Below are positions 6,846 to 63,607 of a DNA stretch of 64,000 nt, piece by piece. A model generated the notes under the pieces. That model worked only from the letters and a program-made list of their open reading frames with translations, was not told the origin of the DNA and made no database searches. The position numbers were made by a program, and so were the translations under genes. Where the stretch lies: positions 186,001-250,000 of the forward strand of contig NZ_SHLI01000001.1 in the NCBI RefSeq assembly GCF_004217415.1, given 5' to 3'. How positions within the stretch are numbered: position 1 is the stretch's first letter; the number at the start of each line of letters is the position of its first letter. The DNA comes from Spiribacter vilamensis. Its GTDB lineage: Bacteria > Pseudomonadota > Gammaproteobacteria > Nitrococcales > Nitrococcaceae.

Positions 6846-7757
6846 ATGACCCGATCTTCAACCGATGCGCTGCACACGCTGGGCGACTTCATCCGCTGGT
6901 CCGCCAGTCGTTTCCAGGTAGCCGGCCTGCATTACGGACATGGCACGGACAATGCGCTTGATGAGGCCGCAGCACTGGTTCTGGGGTCGCTGCATCTGCC
7001 CCCTGATCTACACTCGGTCTATTTCGGCTGCGCGCTGACAGCGGACGAGCGCGCGCTGCTGTTCGAGCGTATCGATCAGCGTGTCACGCAGCGCCGCCCG
7101 GTACCCTATATTCTCGGCGAGGCCTGGTTCTGCGGGCTTGCCTTCGGTGTCGATGAACAGGTGCTCATCCCGCGTTCACCCATCGCCGAACTCATCGAAT
7201 CGGGGTTTGCGCCCTGGGTGGATCCTGATCGACTGGCGCGTATTGCCGATGTCGGGACCGGCAGTGGCTGTATCGCGATCGCCGCCGCGCTTGCGCTCCC
7301 CGAGGTCGAGGTCGATGCGCTGGATAACGCGCCGGCGGCGCTCGTGCGGGCGAGCGACAACGCGGCCCGTCATGGTGTGGCCGAGCGTGTCCACGTGCAG
7401 GATTCGGACCTGCTCGACGCCATTGCCCCGGAACCGGTGCTTGACCTGATCGTTACCAACCCGCCCTATGTGGACGCAGCGGCGATGGCGGCGCTGCCGC
7501 CCGAGTACCGGCATGAACCGCGGGATGCCCTGGCGGCGGGCAACGATGGCCTGGATGCCGTCCGGCGGCTGCTCCCGCAGGCTGCGGAGCGGCTTACCGA
7601 CCAGGGCATGCTGATCGTCGAGATCGGCCATGGTGCGGACACCTTTGAGGCCGCCTTCCCCGAGCTGCCGGTGACCTGGCTGGAGTTTGAACGCGGCGGG
7701 CAGGGCGTCTTCGCCGTTGATGCCAGTACGTTGCGGAGCGCCTTCACCGCCCGCTGA
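6846..7757 (+). CDS. prmB: 50S ribosomal protein L3 N5-glutamine methyltransferase
   Basis: The 303-residue class I SAM methyltransferase has the glycine-rich motif DVGTGSGCIAIAAAL and the glutamine-binding NPPY motif (IVTNPPYVDAAAM). PrmB rather than PrmC is indicated by YGHGTDNALDEA, AWFCGLAFGVDE and the downstream YRHEPRDALAAGNDGLD segment, all characteristic of PrmB, and by its place just upstream of aroC as in E. coli. It methylates a glutamine of ribosomal protein L3. Confidence 0.93.
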   Translation: MTRSSTDALHTLGDFIRWSASRFQVAGLHYGHGTDNALDEAAALVLGSLHLPPDLHSVYFGCALTADERALLFERIDQRVTQRRPVPYILGEAWFCGLAFGVDEQVLIPRSPIAELIESGFAPWVDPDRLARIADVGTGSGCIAIAAALALPEVEVDALDNAPAALVRASDNAARHGVAERVHVQDSDLLDAIAPEPVLDLIVTNPPYVDAAAMAALPPEYRHEPRDALAAGNDGLDAVRRLLPQAAERLTDQGMLIVEIGHGADTFEAAFPELPVTWLEFERGGQGVFAVDASTLRSAFTAR

Positions 7758-59538: not shown

Positions 59539-60076
59539 TAAGACGGAAAGCCCGGACAGTAGGAAGCAGGTTCTGGAGATGATTGAAGCGATCAAGCAGT
59601 TTTATGAACGGCGGATGAACCCGGCGCGAGCATCAACCGACGACCCCGAAACGCACCGACTGCAGCTTGCCACGGCCGCGCTGCTCATCGAGATGGCGCA
59701 GGCGGACGATCAGCGTGACAGTGTCGAATTCCAGGCGATTCACGACGGCATTATCGAGGTCTTCGGCCTATCGCCCGAAGAGACAGCCGAGGTCATAGAA
59801 CTGGCGGATCAGGAAGTGCATGAGGCGACCGATCACTTCGATTTCAGTCAGCTGATCAACGAGCAATTCAATTATCAGCAGAAGTGCAAGGTGGTGGAGC
59901 TTCTCTGGCGGGTCTGCCTGGCCGATTCGGAGATGGATCGCTACGAGGAACACCTCGTGCGCAAGATCGCCGAACTGCTCCACGTCGAGCACAGCGCTTT
60001 CATCGCCGCGAAACTGCGCGTCCAGCGCGACTACAGCGCGACCAGCCAGTTCAGCGACTATGATGGCTACGAATAG
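59528..60076 (+). CDS. TerB-like protein
   Basis: The 182-residue helical acidic protein matches the TerB/TerB-like family: LATAALLIEMAQADDQRDSVEFQAIHDGI, the FGLSPEETAEVIELA helix and LLWRVCLADSEMDRYEEHLVRKIAELL, with the paired acidic D-x-x-D-x-x-E metal-type sites. No other ter genes are near, so a link to tellurite resistance is not implied. It begins inside the preceding gene and its TAG overlaps the next gene's GTG. Confidence 0.87.
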   Translation: MSPDKTESPDSRKQVLEMIEAIKQFYERRMNPARASTDDPETHRLQLATAALLIEMAQADDQRDSVEFQAIHDGIIEVFGLSPEETAEVIELADQEVHEATDHFDFSQLINEQFNYQQKCKVVELLWRVCLADSEMDRYEEHLVRKIAELLHVEHSAFIAAKLRVQRDYSATSQFSDYDGYE

Positions 60077-60558
60077 TGGCGGTATTTCGAGCCAGACAGG
60101 TGGCACGTATACGTGATGCCGTCGCCGCCGGGCGCCAGGCAGTGCGGCAGTCTGCCCGGCCTGATCGGCTGACCTTTGCCCGTGCGTTCGTCGACGCCGG
60201 GGGCGCGCAAGTCCCGGGAGACCGAAGCGGCGACGCGAGTGGGGCGCTGGGTGAACGCCTGCTGACTGCGGTCGCCAGCGGTCAATCAGCGGCTTCGACC
60301 GATGCCGACCTCGAGCGCGAGCTCCAGCGCGTGCAAACGGAGACCGACTGGGCGCTTGCCCTCGATGATGAACGGATTATCGGTTTCCTGCTCGACCTGC
60401 CCGACTCGGCGATGGATATACCGACGGTCGAGGCGCTCGCCCATCAAAGCCAGGGCCTGGGTCCCGGGATCTTTCGCAAGGCCGATATCCTCGTCCTGCA
60501 ACCGGAGTGCGACGGCGCTCGATTCATCCCGGTTACCGAGCACGATATCGAGTGCTGA
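60076..60558 (+). CDS. Unrecognised 160-residue protein upstream of nrdJ
   Basis: GTG start shares a base with the TerB-like stop. The product has an arginine/alanine-rich start, an acidic middle and a C-terminal half with DERIIGFLLDLP and GIFRKADILVLQPE; no membrane segment or signal peptide and only one cysteine, at the C terminus. I do not recognise it. Tight coupling to the TerB-like gene suggests a shared role. Confidence 0.6.
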   Translation: MAVFRARQVARIRDAVAAGRQAVRQSARPDRLTFARAFVDAGGAQVPGDRSGDASGALGERLLTAVASGQSAASTDADLERELQRVQTETDWALALDDERIIGFLLDLPDSAMDIPTVEALAHQSQGLGPGIFRKADILVLQPECDGARFIPVTEHDIEC

Positions 60559-60574
60559 CCCCCTCCCGCCCGAA

Positions 60575-60602
60575 TTGACTTGTGCCCGTCCTGGTTTAGA
60601 CT
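60575..60602 (+). promoter_or_regulatory. Candidate sigma70 promoter for nrdJa-nrdJb
   Basis: TTGACT (60575-60580), 16 bases, TAGACT (60597-60602) match five and four of six consensus positions. Transcription would begin near 60609, just before the NrdR-like boxes. Confidence 0.5.
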
Positions 60603-60612
60603 GTGGGCCATT

Positions 60613-60659
60613 ACACAATATGTAGTGGTGACTTGGGAAAACACCTGTACATGTTGTGG
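60613..60659 (+). promoter_or_regulatory. Tandem NrdR-like boxes
   Basis: Box 1, ACACAATATGTAGTGG (60613-60628), fits the NrdR consensus well. Box 2, CCTGTACATGTTGTGG (60644-60659), is weaker but keeps the TGT-x-GTGG half and shares ten of sixteen bases with box 1. They are 31 bp apart start to start, the paired spacing reported for NrdR sites, and cover the start of the transcript from the promoter at 60575, the right place for repression. Confidence 0.65.
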
Positions 60660-60725
60660 ATAACCGCCGGCAACCCGCCTCTGGCGGGGTTCCGCAGCCG
60701 AATCGATAAGCGCAAGGAGAACCTC

Positions 60726-62882
60726 ATGACGACCGCAACGAAACTGCGTGCGCTACCCAAAGCCGTAACGGAAATCCCCATCCAGCCCGCCTCCGCAGAT
60801 ATCTGGGACAAGAAGTATCGGCTCAAGTCCAAGGAAGATGTGATCATCGACGAGACGGTGGATGACACTTATCAGCGGGTCGCTCGGGCACTCGCCGATG
60901 TCGAGCCGGAGAAAGATCGGGGCTACTGGTTCGAGCAGTTCCTCTGGGCGTTGCGTCGCGGAGCGATACCGGCCGGTCGCATCACCTCGAATGCCGGTGC
61001 CTGGGATCACAAGCCGGCCACTTCGACGATCAATTGCACCGTCTCGTCCACGGTAGGCGACTCGATGGACGACATCCTCGACAAGGTCCACGAGGCCGGC
61101 CTGACCCTCAAGGCGGGTTGTGGTATCGGCTACGAGTTCTCGACCCTACGTCCCAAGGGCGCCTATGTGTCCGGCGCCGGCGCCTACACCTCGGGACCGC
61201 TGTCGTTCATGGATATCTACGACAAGATGTGCTTTACGGTCTCCTCCGCGGGCGGTCGCCGGGGGGCCCAGATGGCCACTTTCGACGTCGGTCATCCCGA
61301 TGTCATGGACTTTATCCGTGCCAAGCGCGAGGACGGGCGCCTACGTCAGTTCAACCTCTCGCTACTGATCACCGACGGTTTCATGCAGGCGGTCCGCGAC
61401 GGCGATGACTGGCCGCTGGCCTTCCCGATAAAGCCCGACGAGGCGGAGAGCGGAAGCGTCGATGTCAACGATCCCGACCAGGTGCTCTGGCGGGAGTGGC
61501 CCAATCGCACCAGTGGCTATCTGACTCGGGATGACGGCCTGGTCGCCTGCCGGATCTATCGCTGGGTCAAGGCCCAGCGGATCTGGGACATGATCATGAC
61601 CTCGACCTACGACTATGCCGAGCCGGGCTTCGTGCTGATCGACCGGGTCAACGAGATGAACAACAACTGGTTCTGCGAGGAGATCCGCGCGACCAATCCC
61701 TGCGGTGAACAGCCGCTGCCGCCCTATGGTGCCTGCCTGCTCGGTTCGGTGAATCTCACCAAATTCGTGCGTGAGCCGTTTACCGAGCGTGCCCATTTCG
61801 ACTGGGACGAGTATCGCCGCGTAGTGGCGCTTTTCACTCGCATGCTCGACAACGTTGTCGAGATCAACGGGCTGCCGCTCGAGCGCCAGCGCGAAGAGAT
61901 CGAGCGCAAGCGCCGCCACGGCATGGGCTTCCTCGGTCTCGGTTCGACGGTAACCATGCTGCGGATGAAGTATGGCGATGCCGACTCGCTGGCGTTTACC
62001 GACGAGGTGTCCCGCGAGATGGCGCTGGAAGGCTGGCGCGAAGGCCTCCGGCTTGCCGAGGAAAAGGGCCCGGCGCCGATCATGGAGGAGTCGTTCACGG
62101 TCACCGAGCGGATGCTCGCCTGGCGGCCCGAGCTTCGCGACGATGGTTACGGTAGCGGTGACACGATCCCGGGCCGGGTGCTCTGGGGCCGCTACAGCCG
62201 CTACATGCAGCGGATTGCCGGCGAGGAGCCGGAGCTGGTGGATGCGCTAGTCGAGAAGGGCGCGCGCTTTACGCACCACACCTCCATCGCGCCGACCGGC
62301 ACGATTAGTCTGTCGCTGGCGAACAACGCCTCCAATGGCATCGAGCCGAGCTTTGCGCATCACTACTTCCGCAACGTGATCCGCGAGGGCAAGAAATCGA
62401 AGGAGAAGGTGGACGTATTCAGCTTCGAGCTGCTCGCCTATCGCACGCTGATCGACGAGGGGGCGCTCCCGAGCATGGATGCAGAGACCCGGAACCTGCC
62501 CGATTACTTCATTGCCGCGGATGATGTCACGCCGAAACAGCATGTCGACATCCAGTCCGCTGCCCAGAAGTGGGTGGATTCGAGCATCTCCAAGACGGCC
62601 AATGTGCCCACCGAGTATCCCTACGAGGACTTCAAGGGCATCTATCAGTATGCGTATGACAACGGGCTCAAGGGCTGCACGACCTTCCGTTTCAATCCGG
62701 AGGCGTTCCAGGGGGTCCTGGTCAAGGAGTCGGATCTGGAGAACACGACCTACCGCTTCCGCCTCGAGGATGGCCGCACCGTCGAGGTGAAAGGCGGCGA
62801 TGAGGTCGAGTATGACGGCGAAGTGCATACCGCCGCCAACCTCTACGACGCCCTCAAGGAAGGGTACTACGGGAAATTCTGA
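60726..62882 (+). CDS. nrdJa: Adenosylcobalamin-dependent (class II) ribonucleotide reductase, catalytic part
   Basis: The 718-residue protein has the class II/RNR barrel: a redox cysteine in STINCTVSS, the radical-site NPCGEQ loop (asparagine, cysteine, glutamate), and IAPTGTISLSLANNASNG. It is the large half of a split NrdJ as in Pseudomonas aeruginosa; the C-terminal TSCPD/CxxC part is the next gene. It reduces ribonucleotides using B12, with or without oxygen. AAGGAGA precedes ATG 60726; the frame back to 60603 covers the promoter and NrdR-like sites. Confidence 0.95.
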   Translation: MTTATKLRALPKAVTEIPIQPASADIWDKKYRLKSKEDVIIDETVDDTYQRVARALADVEPEKDRGYWFEQFLWALRRGAIPAGRITSNAGAWDHKPATSTINCTVSSTVGDSMDDILDKVHEAGLTLKAGCGIGYEFSTLRPKGAYVSGAGAYTSGPLSFMDIYDKMCFTVSSAGGRRGAQMATFDVGHPDVMDFIRAKREDGRLRQFNLSLLITDGFMQAVRDGDDWPLAFPIKPDEAESGSVDVNDPDQVLWREWPNRTSGYLTRDDGLVACRIYRWVKAQRIWDMIMTSTYDYAEPGFVLIDRVNEMNNNWFCEEIRATNPCGEQPLPPYGACLLGSVNLTKFVREPFTERAHFDWDEYRRVVALFTRMLDNVVEINGLPLERQREEIERKRRHGMGFLGLGSTVTMLRMKYGDADSLAFTDEVSREMALEGWREGLRLAEEKGPAPIMEESFTVTERMLAWRPELRDDGYGSGDTIPGRVLWGRYSRYMQRIAGEEPELVDALVEKGARFTHHTSIAPTGTISLSLANNASNGIEPSFAHHYFRNVIREGKKSKEKVDVFSFELLAYRTLIDEGALPSMDAETRNLPDYFIAADDVTPKQHVDIQSAAQKWVDSSISKTANVPTEYPYEDFKGIYQYAYDNGLKGCTTFRFNPEAFQGVLVKESDLENTTYRFRLEDGRTVEVKGGDEVEYDGEVHTAANLYDALKEGYYGKF

Positions 62883-62893
62883 GGAAAGACGCC

Positions 62894-63607
62894 ATGGCAG
62901 TAAAAATCGATAGCAAAATCGTCGACTACGAAGTCGCCCGGGCCGACGCCGAAGAGGCCTCCCCCAACGATGACGGTGGCGCCCCTGCGGCGGCCCCGAT
63001 TGAGCACATGCACGAGGAGCTCAAGCGCCCTGATCGCCTGGAAGGGCAGACCTACAAGATCAAGACGCCGCTCTCCGAGCACGCTCTCTATGTCACGGTG
63101 AACGACCTGGTTCTCAACGAGGGGACGGAGCACGAACTGCGGCGGCCGTTCGAGGTGTTCATCAACTCGAAGAATATGGATCATTTCCAGTGGATTGTGG
63201 CGCTGACCCGGATCGTCTCGGCGGTTTTCCGCAAGGGCGGCGACTGCACCTTTCTGGTCGAGGAGCTGCGCAGTGTTTTCGATCCGCGTGGCGGCTACTT
63301 CAAGAAAGGTGGTCGGTTCATGCCCTCGCTGGTGGCCGAGATTGGCGAGGTGCTCGAGCAGCACCTGCGCTCTATCGGCATGATCGAGTCGGGAGAACTG
63401 GACGAGCATCAGCGCCGCTACATCGAGCAGAAAAAGGCCGAGGCGATGGACCGTGCCCACCCGGGTGATTCGGCCGGGGATGCCGGGACGGACGATGACG
63501 GCTACCCGTCGGGGGCCGAGCTCTGCGGCAAGTGCCATGTCAAGGCCATGGTGGTCATGGACGGCTGCCTGACCTGTCTCAACTGCGGTGACAGCAAATG
63601 CGGCTGA
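62894..63607 (+). CDS. nrdJb: Class II ribonucleotide reductase, C-terminal subunit (TSCPD domain)
   Basis: The 237-residue protein has the TSCPD-type domain (LYVTVNDLVLNEGTEHELRRPFEVFINSKN; IVSAVFRKGGDCTFLVEELR) and a C-terminal cysteine-rich tail (CGKC ... CLTCLNCG ... CG) expected to re-reduce the active-site cysteines of NrdJa. Eleven bases separate it from nrdJa; GGAAAG precedes its ATG. Split organisation matches P. aeruginosa nrdJab. Confidence 0.93.
   Translation: MAVKIDSKIVDYEVARADAEEASPNDDGGAPAAAPIEHMHEELKRPDRLEGQTYKIKTPLSEHALYVTVNDLVLNEGTEHELRRPFEVFINSKNMDHFQWIVALTRIVSAVFRKGGDCTFLVEELRSVFDPRGGYFKKGGRFMPSLVAEIGEVLEQHLRSIGMIESGELDEHQRRYIEQKKAEAMDRAHPGDSAGDAGTDDDGYPSGAELCGKCHVKAMVVMDGCLTCLNCGDSKCG

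Follow-up and report, generated by a model that had tools for sequence, protein, structure and literature searches.

The nrdJab operon of Spiribacter vilamensis, encoding a split class II ribonucleotide reductase, is preceded by a promoter-operator on which the regulator NrdR very probably acts. A perfect and conserved DnaA box overlaps the second NrdR box, and the comparative data lean towards DnaA sharing this operator. Taking the two together, we consider it probable that nrdJab is subject to dATP-driven repression by NrdR at an operator shared with DnaA. The operon lies in the 64-kb stretch of DNA that was analysed (hereafter the window), which belongs to the genome labelled G000; the organism is a member of the genus Spiribacter, family Nitrococcaceae, order Nitrococcales, class Gammaproteobacteria. 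An earlier first-pass annotation of the window did not see the conserved DnaA box over NrdR box 2. The features of the region are:

60575..60602, plus strand: sigma70-like promoter (-35 TTGACT at 60575-60580, 16-bp spacer, -10 TAGACT at 60597-60602)
60613..60628, plus strand: NrdR box 1, ACACAATATGTAGTGG, strong, with both C4 and G13
60644..60659, plus strand: NrdR box 2, CCTGTACATGTTGTGG, with a degenerate left half (C4 missing) and a conserved right half
60655..60663, minus strand: perfect DnaA box TTATCCACA (plus strand TGTGGATAA), sharing the last 5 bp of box 2
60726..62882, plus strand: nrdJa, catalytic part of the class II (adenosylcobalamin-dependent) ribonucleotide reductase (TIGR02504, PF02867, PF00317)
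62894..63607, plus strand: nrdJb, C-terminal part of the class II reductase (TSCPD domain, Cys-rich tail)

The first-pass annotation had described, in front of nrdJa, a promoter of sigma70 type followed by a pair of NrdR-like 16-mers, 31 bp apart start to start, and the letters agree with this: box 1 begins 10 bases past the -10 element, and a spacer of 15 bp separates it from box 2. The promoter is the only promoter-like site that the promoter scan found in 60001-61200, where shuffles give 0.2 on average, and many relatives, not all, keep TTGACTT and a TAnnnT -10 element, as judged by eye. The product of nrdJa matches TIGR02504 with 560 bits, above the NCBIfam cut-off, and AAGGAG precedes its start codon, ATG at 60726. 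A B12 riboswitch in the leader, which the earlier annotation had also failed to see, can be rejected, since RF00174 has no match at the gathering score in the 64-kb window and none at E up to 10 within 60500-60800; no known riboswitch was found in the nrdJa leader. In many relatives (L050, L054-L058, L060, L061, L064, L065, L082, and others) the nrdJa frames are about 900-1545 aa long, and the matches to these long frames are interrupted around query residues 122-148 and 282-346, a pattern expected of inteins.

The two boxes were scored with a matrix built solely from the seven E. coli NrdR boxes printed in PMC12176259, 40 first-order simulated windows serving as the null. Box 1 reaches 20.9 bits and ranks first in the window, the top single score in the simulations being 16.6; box 2 by itself has 9.7 bits and ranks fourth. 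At 30.6 bits, the 31-bp pair outranks every other pair in the window and exceeds all 40 simulations (maximum 17.5), and the best pair among those listed for the 64-kb window that does not include box 1 has 9.3 bits. Across the 2.08-Mb genome, ACACNATATNTWGTG is matched without mismatch by box 1 only. Taken by itself, box 2 is weak, and its candidacy as an NrdR site draws solely on its spacing and conservation. The earlier claim that NrdR pairs boxes at this distance fits the published material, where the usual spacer is given as 15-16 bp (PMC12176259, PMC12051234). A wider NrdR regulon deduced from single boxes was rejected, as the genome scan at up to three mismatches gave 114 matches, fewer than the 174 of the reversed control pattern. 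One of the single-box matches, at C1:559035, has one mismatch.

The search for nrdR suggested by the first-pass annotation located the gene at G000:C1:1297613-1298050 (TIGR00244, 204.5 bits), flanked by genes taken by eye as glyA and ribD; its product is the only ATP-cone match of the genome. The translation has CxxC twice, R12, D15, R17, R26-R29 and R37, numbered by eye against PMC9110341, which names the zinc and DNA-contact residues of NrdR. The gene is present in 22 of the 23 genomes of the family. The one without it, G007, is a broken assembly of 660 contigs, in which no close nrdJ match was seen, just a distant class I match.

To follow the operator through relatives, we used nrdJa leaders from 33 of 54 genomes of the order, covering 16 of its 17 genera, and 102 leaders from a class sample of 274 genomes, own order included. 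Intein-split, cut or unlisted nrdJa genes are mostly left out of this set, and 6 of 141 loci had no usable nrdJa start; the order loci share kinship, so that counts among them are not counts of independent events. Most of the 33 leaders from the order keep counterparts of both NrdR boxes, and the loss of the boxes in close relatives, for which the earlier annotation advised looking, was not seen. When the best pair was sought at spacings of 17-60 with an NrdR consensus, it fell at 28-34 in 32 of the 33 leaders and at 31 or 32 in 20; in 101 further leaders of the class 31-32 was again commonest (30/101). Other spacings also exceed shuffles, less strongly, which we attribute to the strength of box 1 alone.

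The key bases of the boxes were counted where a pair at spacings of 30-33 scored 14 or more, which was the case in 92 of the 134 leaders, some order pairs being taken one step upstream. Among the scored pairs of the order, box 1 has C4 in 31/32 and G13 in 32/32; box 2 has G13 in 31/32, C4 in merely 12/32 and no C4 in the other 20. Outside the order, 49 of 60 scored leaders of the class have C4 in box 2. In S. coelicolor, inverting the conserved GC pairs is reported to weaken NrdR binding about 50-fold (PMC9110341); if these pairs correspond to C4 and G13, which is our own mapping, box 2 without C4 may be a weak NrdR site. Box 1 might be the only NrdR site, box 2 being a DnaA box whose flank happens to resemble half an NrdR box, as the missing C4 and the 9.7 bits would have it. 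We regard this as very improbable, because the NrdR half-site ATATTGTG is kept 30-31 bp from box 1 (spacings 30-32 tried) in genus leaders that have no DnaA box (L043, L044, L046, L047, L062, L063), and the peak of pair spacing is found class-wide. A possible third NrdR-like box lies 30-32 bp upstream of box 1 and overlaps the promoter in L049, L058, L071, L072, L073, L075 and L076, a likeness to the box 0-1-2 layout of E. coli nrdAB.

That the two boxes are arms of a leader RNA hairpin and not protein sites is hardly credible. In the predicted fold CACAAUAUGUA is able to pair with UACAUGUUGUG, and some changes within the genus preserve the pairing (L039 versus L041, by eye). However, the fold is ordinary (z -1.29, with 16 of 200 shuffles equally stable), and in 60 leaders outside the order the complementarity of matched arms is 4.47 versus 4.68 for shuffled partners; on these two results the hairpin was rejected.

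The site at 60655-60663 is an exact match to the DnaA-box consensus TTATNCACA. It was picked by eye ahead of its statistical tests. The word TTATCCACA has one copy in the 64 kb, where 0.14 are expected, and eight in the 2.08-Mb genome, versus two for the reversed control. Of the seven other copies, one lies in the dnaA-dnaN gap, five within genes and one at C1:799938, inside an open frame that was taken, by eye, as spurious. DnaA-box-like 9-mers form a small cluster around this last copy (L305:1440-1570), at a distance from dnaA-dnaN and in probably intergenic DNA. The genome encodes DnaA (TIGR00362, 613 bits), and both dnaA and dnaN were confirmed. Binding of DnaA at this site is predicted from the motif; a single box could bind weakly, and E. 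coli DnaA has reportedly been found to prefer closely spaced pairs of boxes.

Conservation singles out the DnaA box within the order. The exact box recurs in the same orientation in 19 of the 33 order leaders, between -76 and -45 relative to the nrdJa start; the other 14 have no exact box, among them 6 of the 13 leaders of the genus, the same six that keep ATATTGTG. Within -45 to -77 it occurs in one of the 102 other class leaders (at -77), so that a class-wide DnaA box was rejected; in eight others of these 102 leaders, exact boxes lie scattered within 300 bp. When 16 of the 17 order genera were represented by one hand-chosen leader each, TGTGGATAA was the 9-mer most shared upstream of nrdJa, being exact in 11 of 16 genera and within one mismatch in 14, versus at most 3 genera in 100 shuffles and 0/16 for the reversed control. 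The background was counted in 28 of the 33 order loci, together 143,576 bases, and all 19 exact DnaA boxes in them sit in the nrdJa leader.

The same word might be conserved simply as a longer, shifted box 2 of the order, within an ordinary NrdR operator to which DnaA does not bind. This view has in its favour the position of the DnaA box, which overlaps box 2 in 12 of the 19 leaders, 42-43 bp past the start of box 1, and the fact that NrdR control of nrdJab is already known (PMC4409342). However, in the other seven leaders (L068-L072, L074, L075) the DnaA box is separate from box 2, 52-76 bp after box 1; these offsets come from a pair scan at spacings of 30-32 only and are partly by hand, being recalculated where the pair fell upstream of box 1. 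L068-L071 have a box 2 with ATGTTGTGG ahead of the separate DnaA box, and in L049, L072, L073 and L075 TGTGGATAA is kept where no box 2 core (central AT, 31-32 bp away) is recognisable by eye. In leaders from beyond the order the commonest words are those of NrdR boxes, yet TGTGGATAA is found in 1/101 of them. Since the DnaA box lies apart from box 2 in some relatives, it cannot be just a portion of the NrdR site; and as some leaders have the NrdR half-site but no DnaA box, and others a DnaA box but no recognisable box 2 core, the two elements are separable and overlap here. We thus find NrdR alone an unlikely explanation and prefer an operator shared with DnaA.

Under the shared operator that we favour, high dATP would lead an NrdR tetramer carrying dATP and ATP to occupy boxes 1 and 2, which closely follow the -10 element and are about three helical turns apart, and this would block nrdJab transcription. 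Across the order, the left half of box 2 appears to have been largely lost and its right half to have fused with a DnaA box in many species. DnaA most likely occupies the same spot, where it would either rival NrdR for box 2 or itself repress or activate, and would couple the supply of DNA precursors to the initiation of replication, as at E. coli nrdAB. The data show the sequences of the sites, their spacing and how far they are conserved, and that the genome has both nrdR and dnaA; from this we infer binding by NrdR and by DnaA, some direction of the DnaA effect, and competition. Because DnaA on 60655-60663 would span five bases at the right end of box 2, joint binding with NrdR would be difficult, and competition is the simplest reading. 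A more tentative proposal, to which we give somewhat less than even weight, is that the class II reductase of Nitrococcales has a composite operator whose overlapping sites are contested by the dATP sensor NrdR and the replication initiator DnaA, so that replication initiation would lift or tighten NrdR repression.

The genome encodes a second reductase, of class Ib (NrdE, TIGR04170, 1208 bits; NrdF, TIGR04171, 479 bits), a class not seen in any other genome of the genus. The nrdH and nrdI genes of its operon were assigned by eye, the nrdH frame having no NCBIfam match. The nrdHIEF leader (L034:7627-7407, minus strand; G000:C1 about 1621120) contains two NrdR boxes exactly 31 bp apart (25.4 bits for the pair) and a cobalamin riboswitch (RF00174, 146.6 bits, L034 7594-7407). 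Box 2 of this pair (first base 7596) overlaps the start of the riboswitch, and thus repressor site and riboswitch share DNA. Just downstream of nrdHIEF there is a second cobalamin riboswitch (L034:3222-3031, minus strand, 135 bits), followed by a gene for a TonB receptor with a weak BtuB match and then by one for a binding protein with a weak BtuF match, both below the NCBIfam cut-offs.

Among the 80 nrdE relatives considered from the matches listed, the closest are mostly from Rhodobacterales (Paracoccus marinus, 86%), and 58 of the 80 have a B12-box motif within 1500 bp upstream of nrdE. Rfam found the riboswitch in 12 of 14 nrdE loci; these 12 had been picked for having the motif and the other two (L172, L187) for lacking it. 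These patterns suggest that the nrdHIEF operon may have arrived with both controls, the NrdR pair and the riboswitch. The best spacing of NrdR boxes in nrdHIEF leaders gave a less clean picture, being 31 in 15 of 58 loci and 33 in 12, with the others scattered. A cobalamin riboswitch joined with nrdHIEF was not found in the open-licence literature; older work by Vitreschak, Rodionov and Borovok is said to describe B12 elements before reductase genes. The first-pass prediction that NrdR controls nrdJab is supported by the box pair, by nrdR and by conservation; it was incomplete in that box 2 is half-degenerate and overlaps a conserved perfect DnaA box, and in that nrdHIEF carries a cobalamin riboswitch.

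The genus is represented by 14 genomes, five of them assemblies less than 90% complete, and in 12 of the 14 no class I or II reductase was found besides the class II enzyme. The exceptions are G000 with its nrdE and G009, which has a second, interrupted reductase match; in the latter genome a second reductase-like frame, about 605 aa long (G009:C1:1717255-1718697), resembles nrdJ and nrdE only distantly. The class III reductase NrdD and the protein CbiC are both absent from the 14 genus genomes (0/14 each). It follows that the genus probably imports B12 and that the nrdJab operator, if the proposed reading is true, would govern the main DNA-precursor enzyme of such bacteria. The conserved DnaA box over an NrdR box would also extend DnaA control to B12-dependent reductases and would offer a single operator at which the interplay of replication initiation with dATP feedback could be tested directly.

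NrdR control of nrdJab is in itself ordinary and known from P. aeruginosa, where it has a reporter-tested precedent (Crespo et al. 2015, PMC4409342). The two organisms share a class II reductase in split form, a promoter with a pair of NrdR boxes and NrdR as the regulator, here a predicted one. In P. aeruginosa, NrdR is an aerobic repressor, mutation of box 2 in the reporter gives expression like that of an nrdR mutant, and a gel shift with NrdR was not obtained. Box 1 of P. aeruginosa overlaps the -10 element, whereas that of S. vilamensis starts 10 bases after it, and the relevant passages on P. aeruginosa name no DnaA box, the comparison being one of descriptions and not of promoter sequences (PMC4409342). 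DnaA control of ribonucleotide reductase is described as shown for the class Ia enzyme of E. coli and proposed for B. subtilis and Caulobacter, and at E. coli nrdAB DnaA activates or represses depending on nucleotide and level (PMC8203912). In the open-licence literature, a DnaA box and nrdJ co-occur in PMC2864759 alone, with no link drawn between them in the relevant passages. The S. vilamensis operator shares with E. coli nrdAB a reductase promoter with NrdR and DnaA (here putative), an atypical box 2 and the 15-bp distance; the E. coli enzyme is of class Ia with three DnaA boxes, whereas here a class II enzyme has one perfect DnaA box overlapping box 2 (PMC8203912, PMC12176259).

The pairing of the two S. 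vilamensis operons has its closest counterpart in S. coelicolor, with which it shares NrdR boxes on both operons and a cobalamin riboswitch on the B12-independent operon alone. A B12 riboswitch on the B12-independent reductase of S. coelicolor was reportedly described by Borovok in 2006. NrdR acts there on both nrdRJ and nrdAB(S) (PMC9110341). The difference from S. coelicolor is that here the B12-independent enzyme is of class Ib, with an nrdE most like alphaproteobacterial genes among the 80 relatives from the matches listed.
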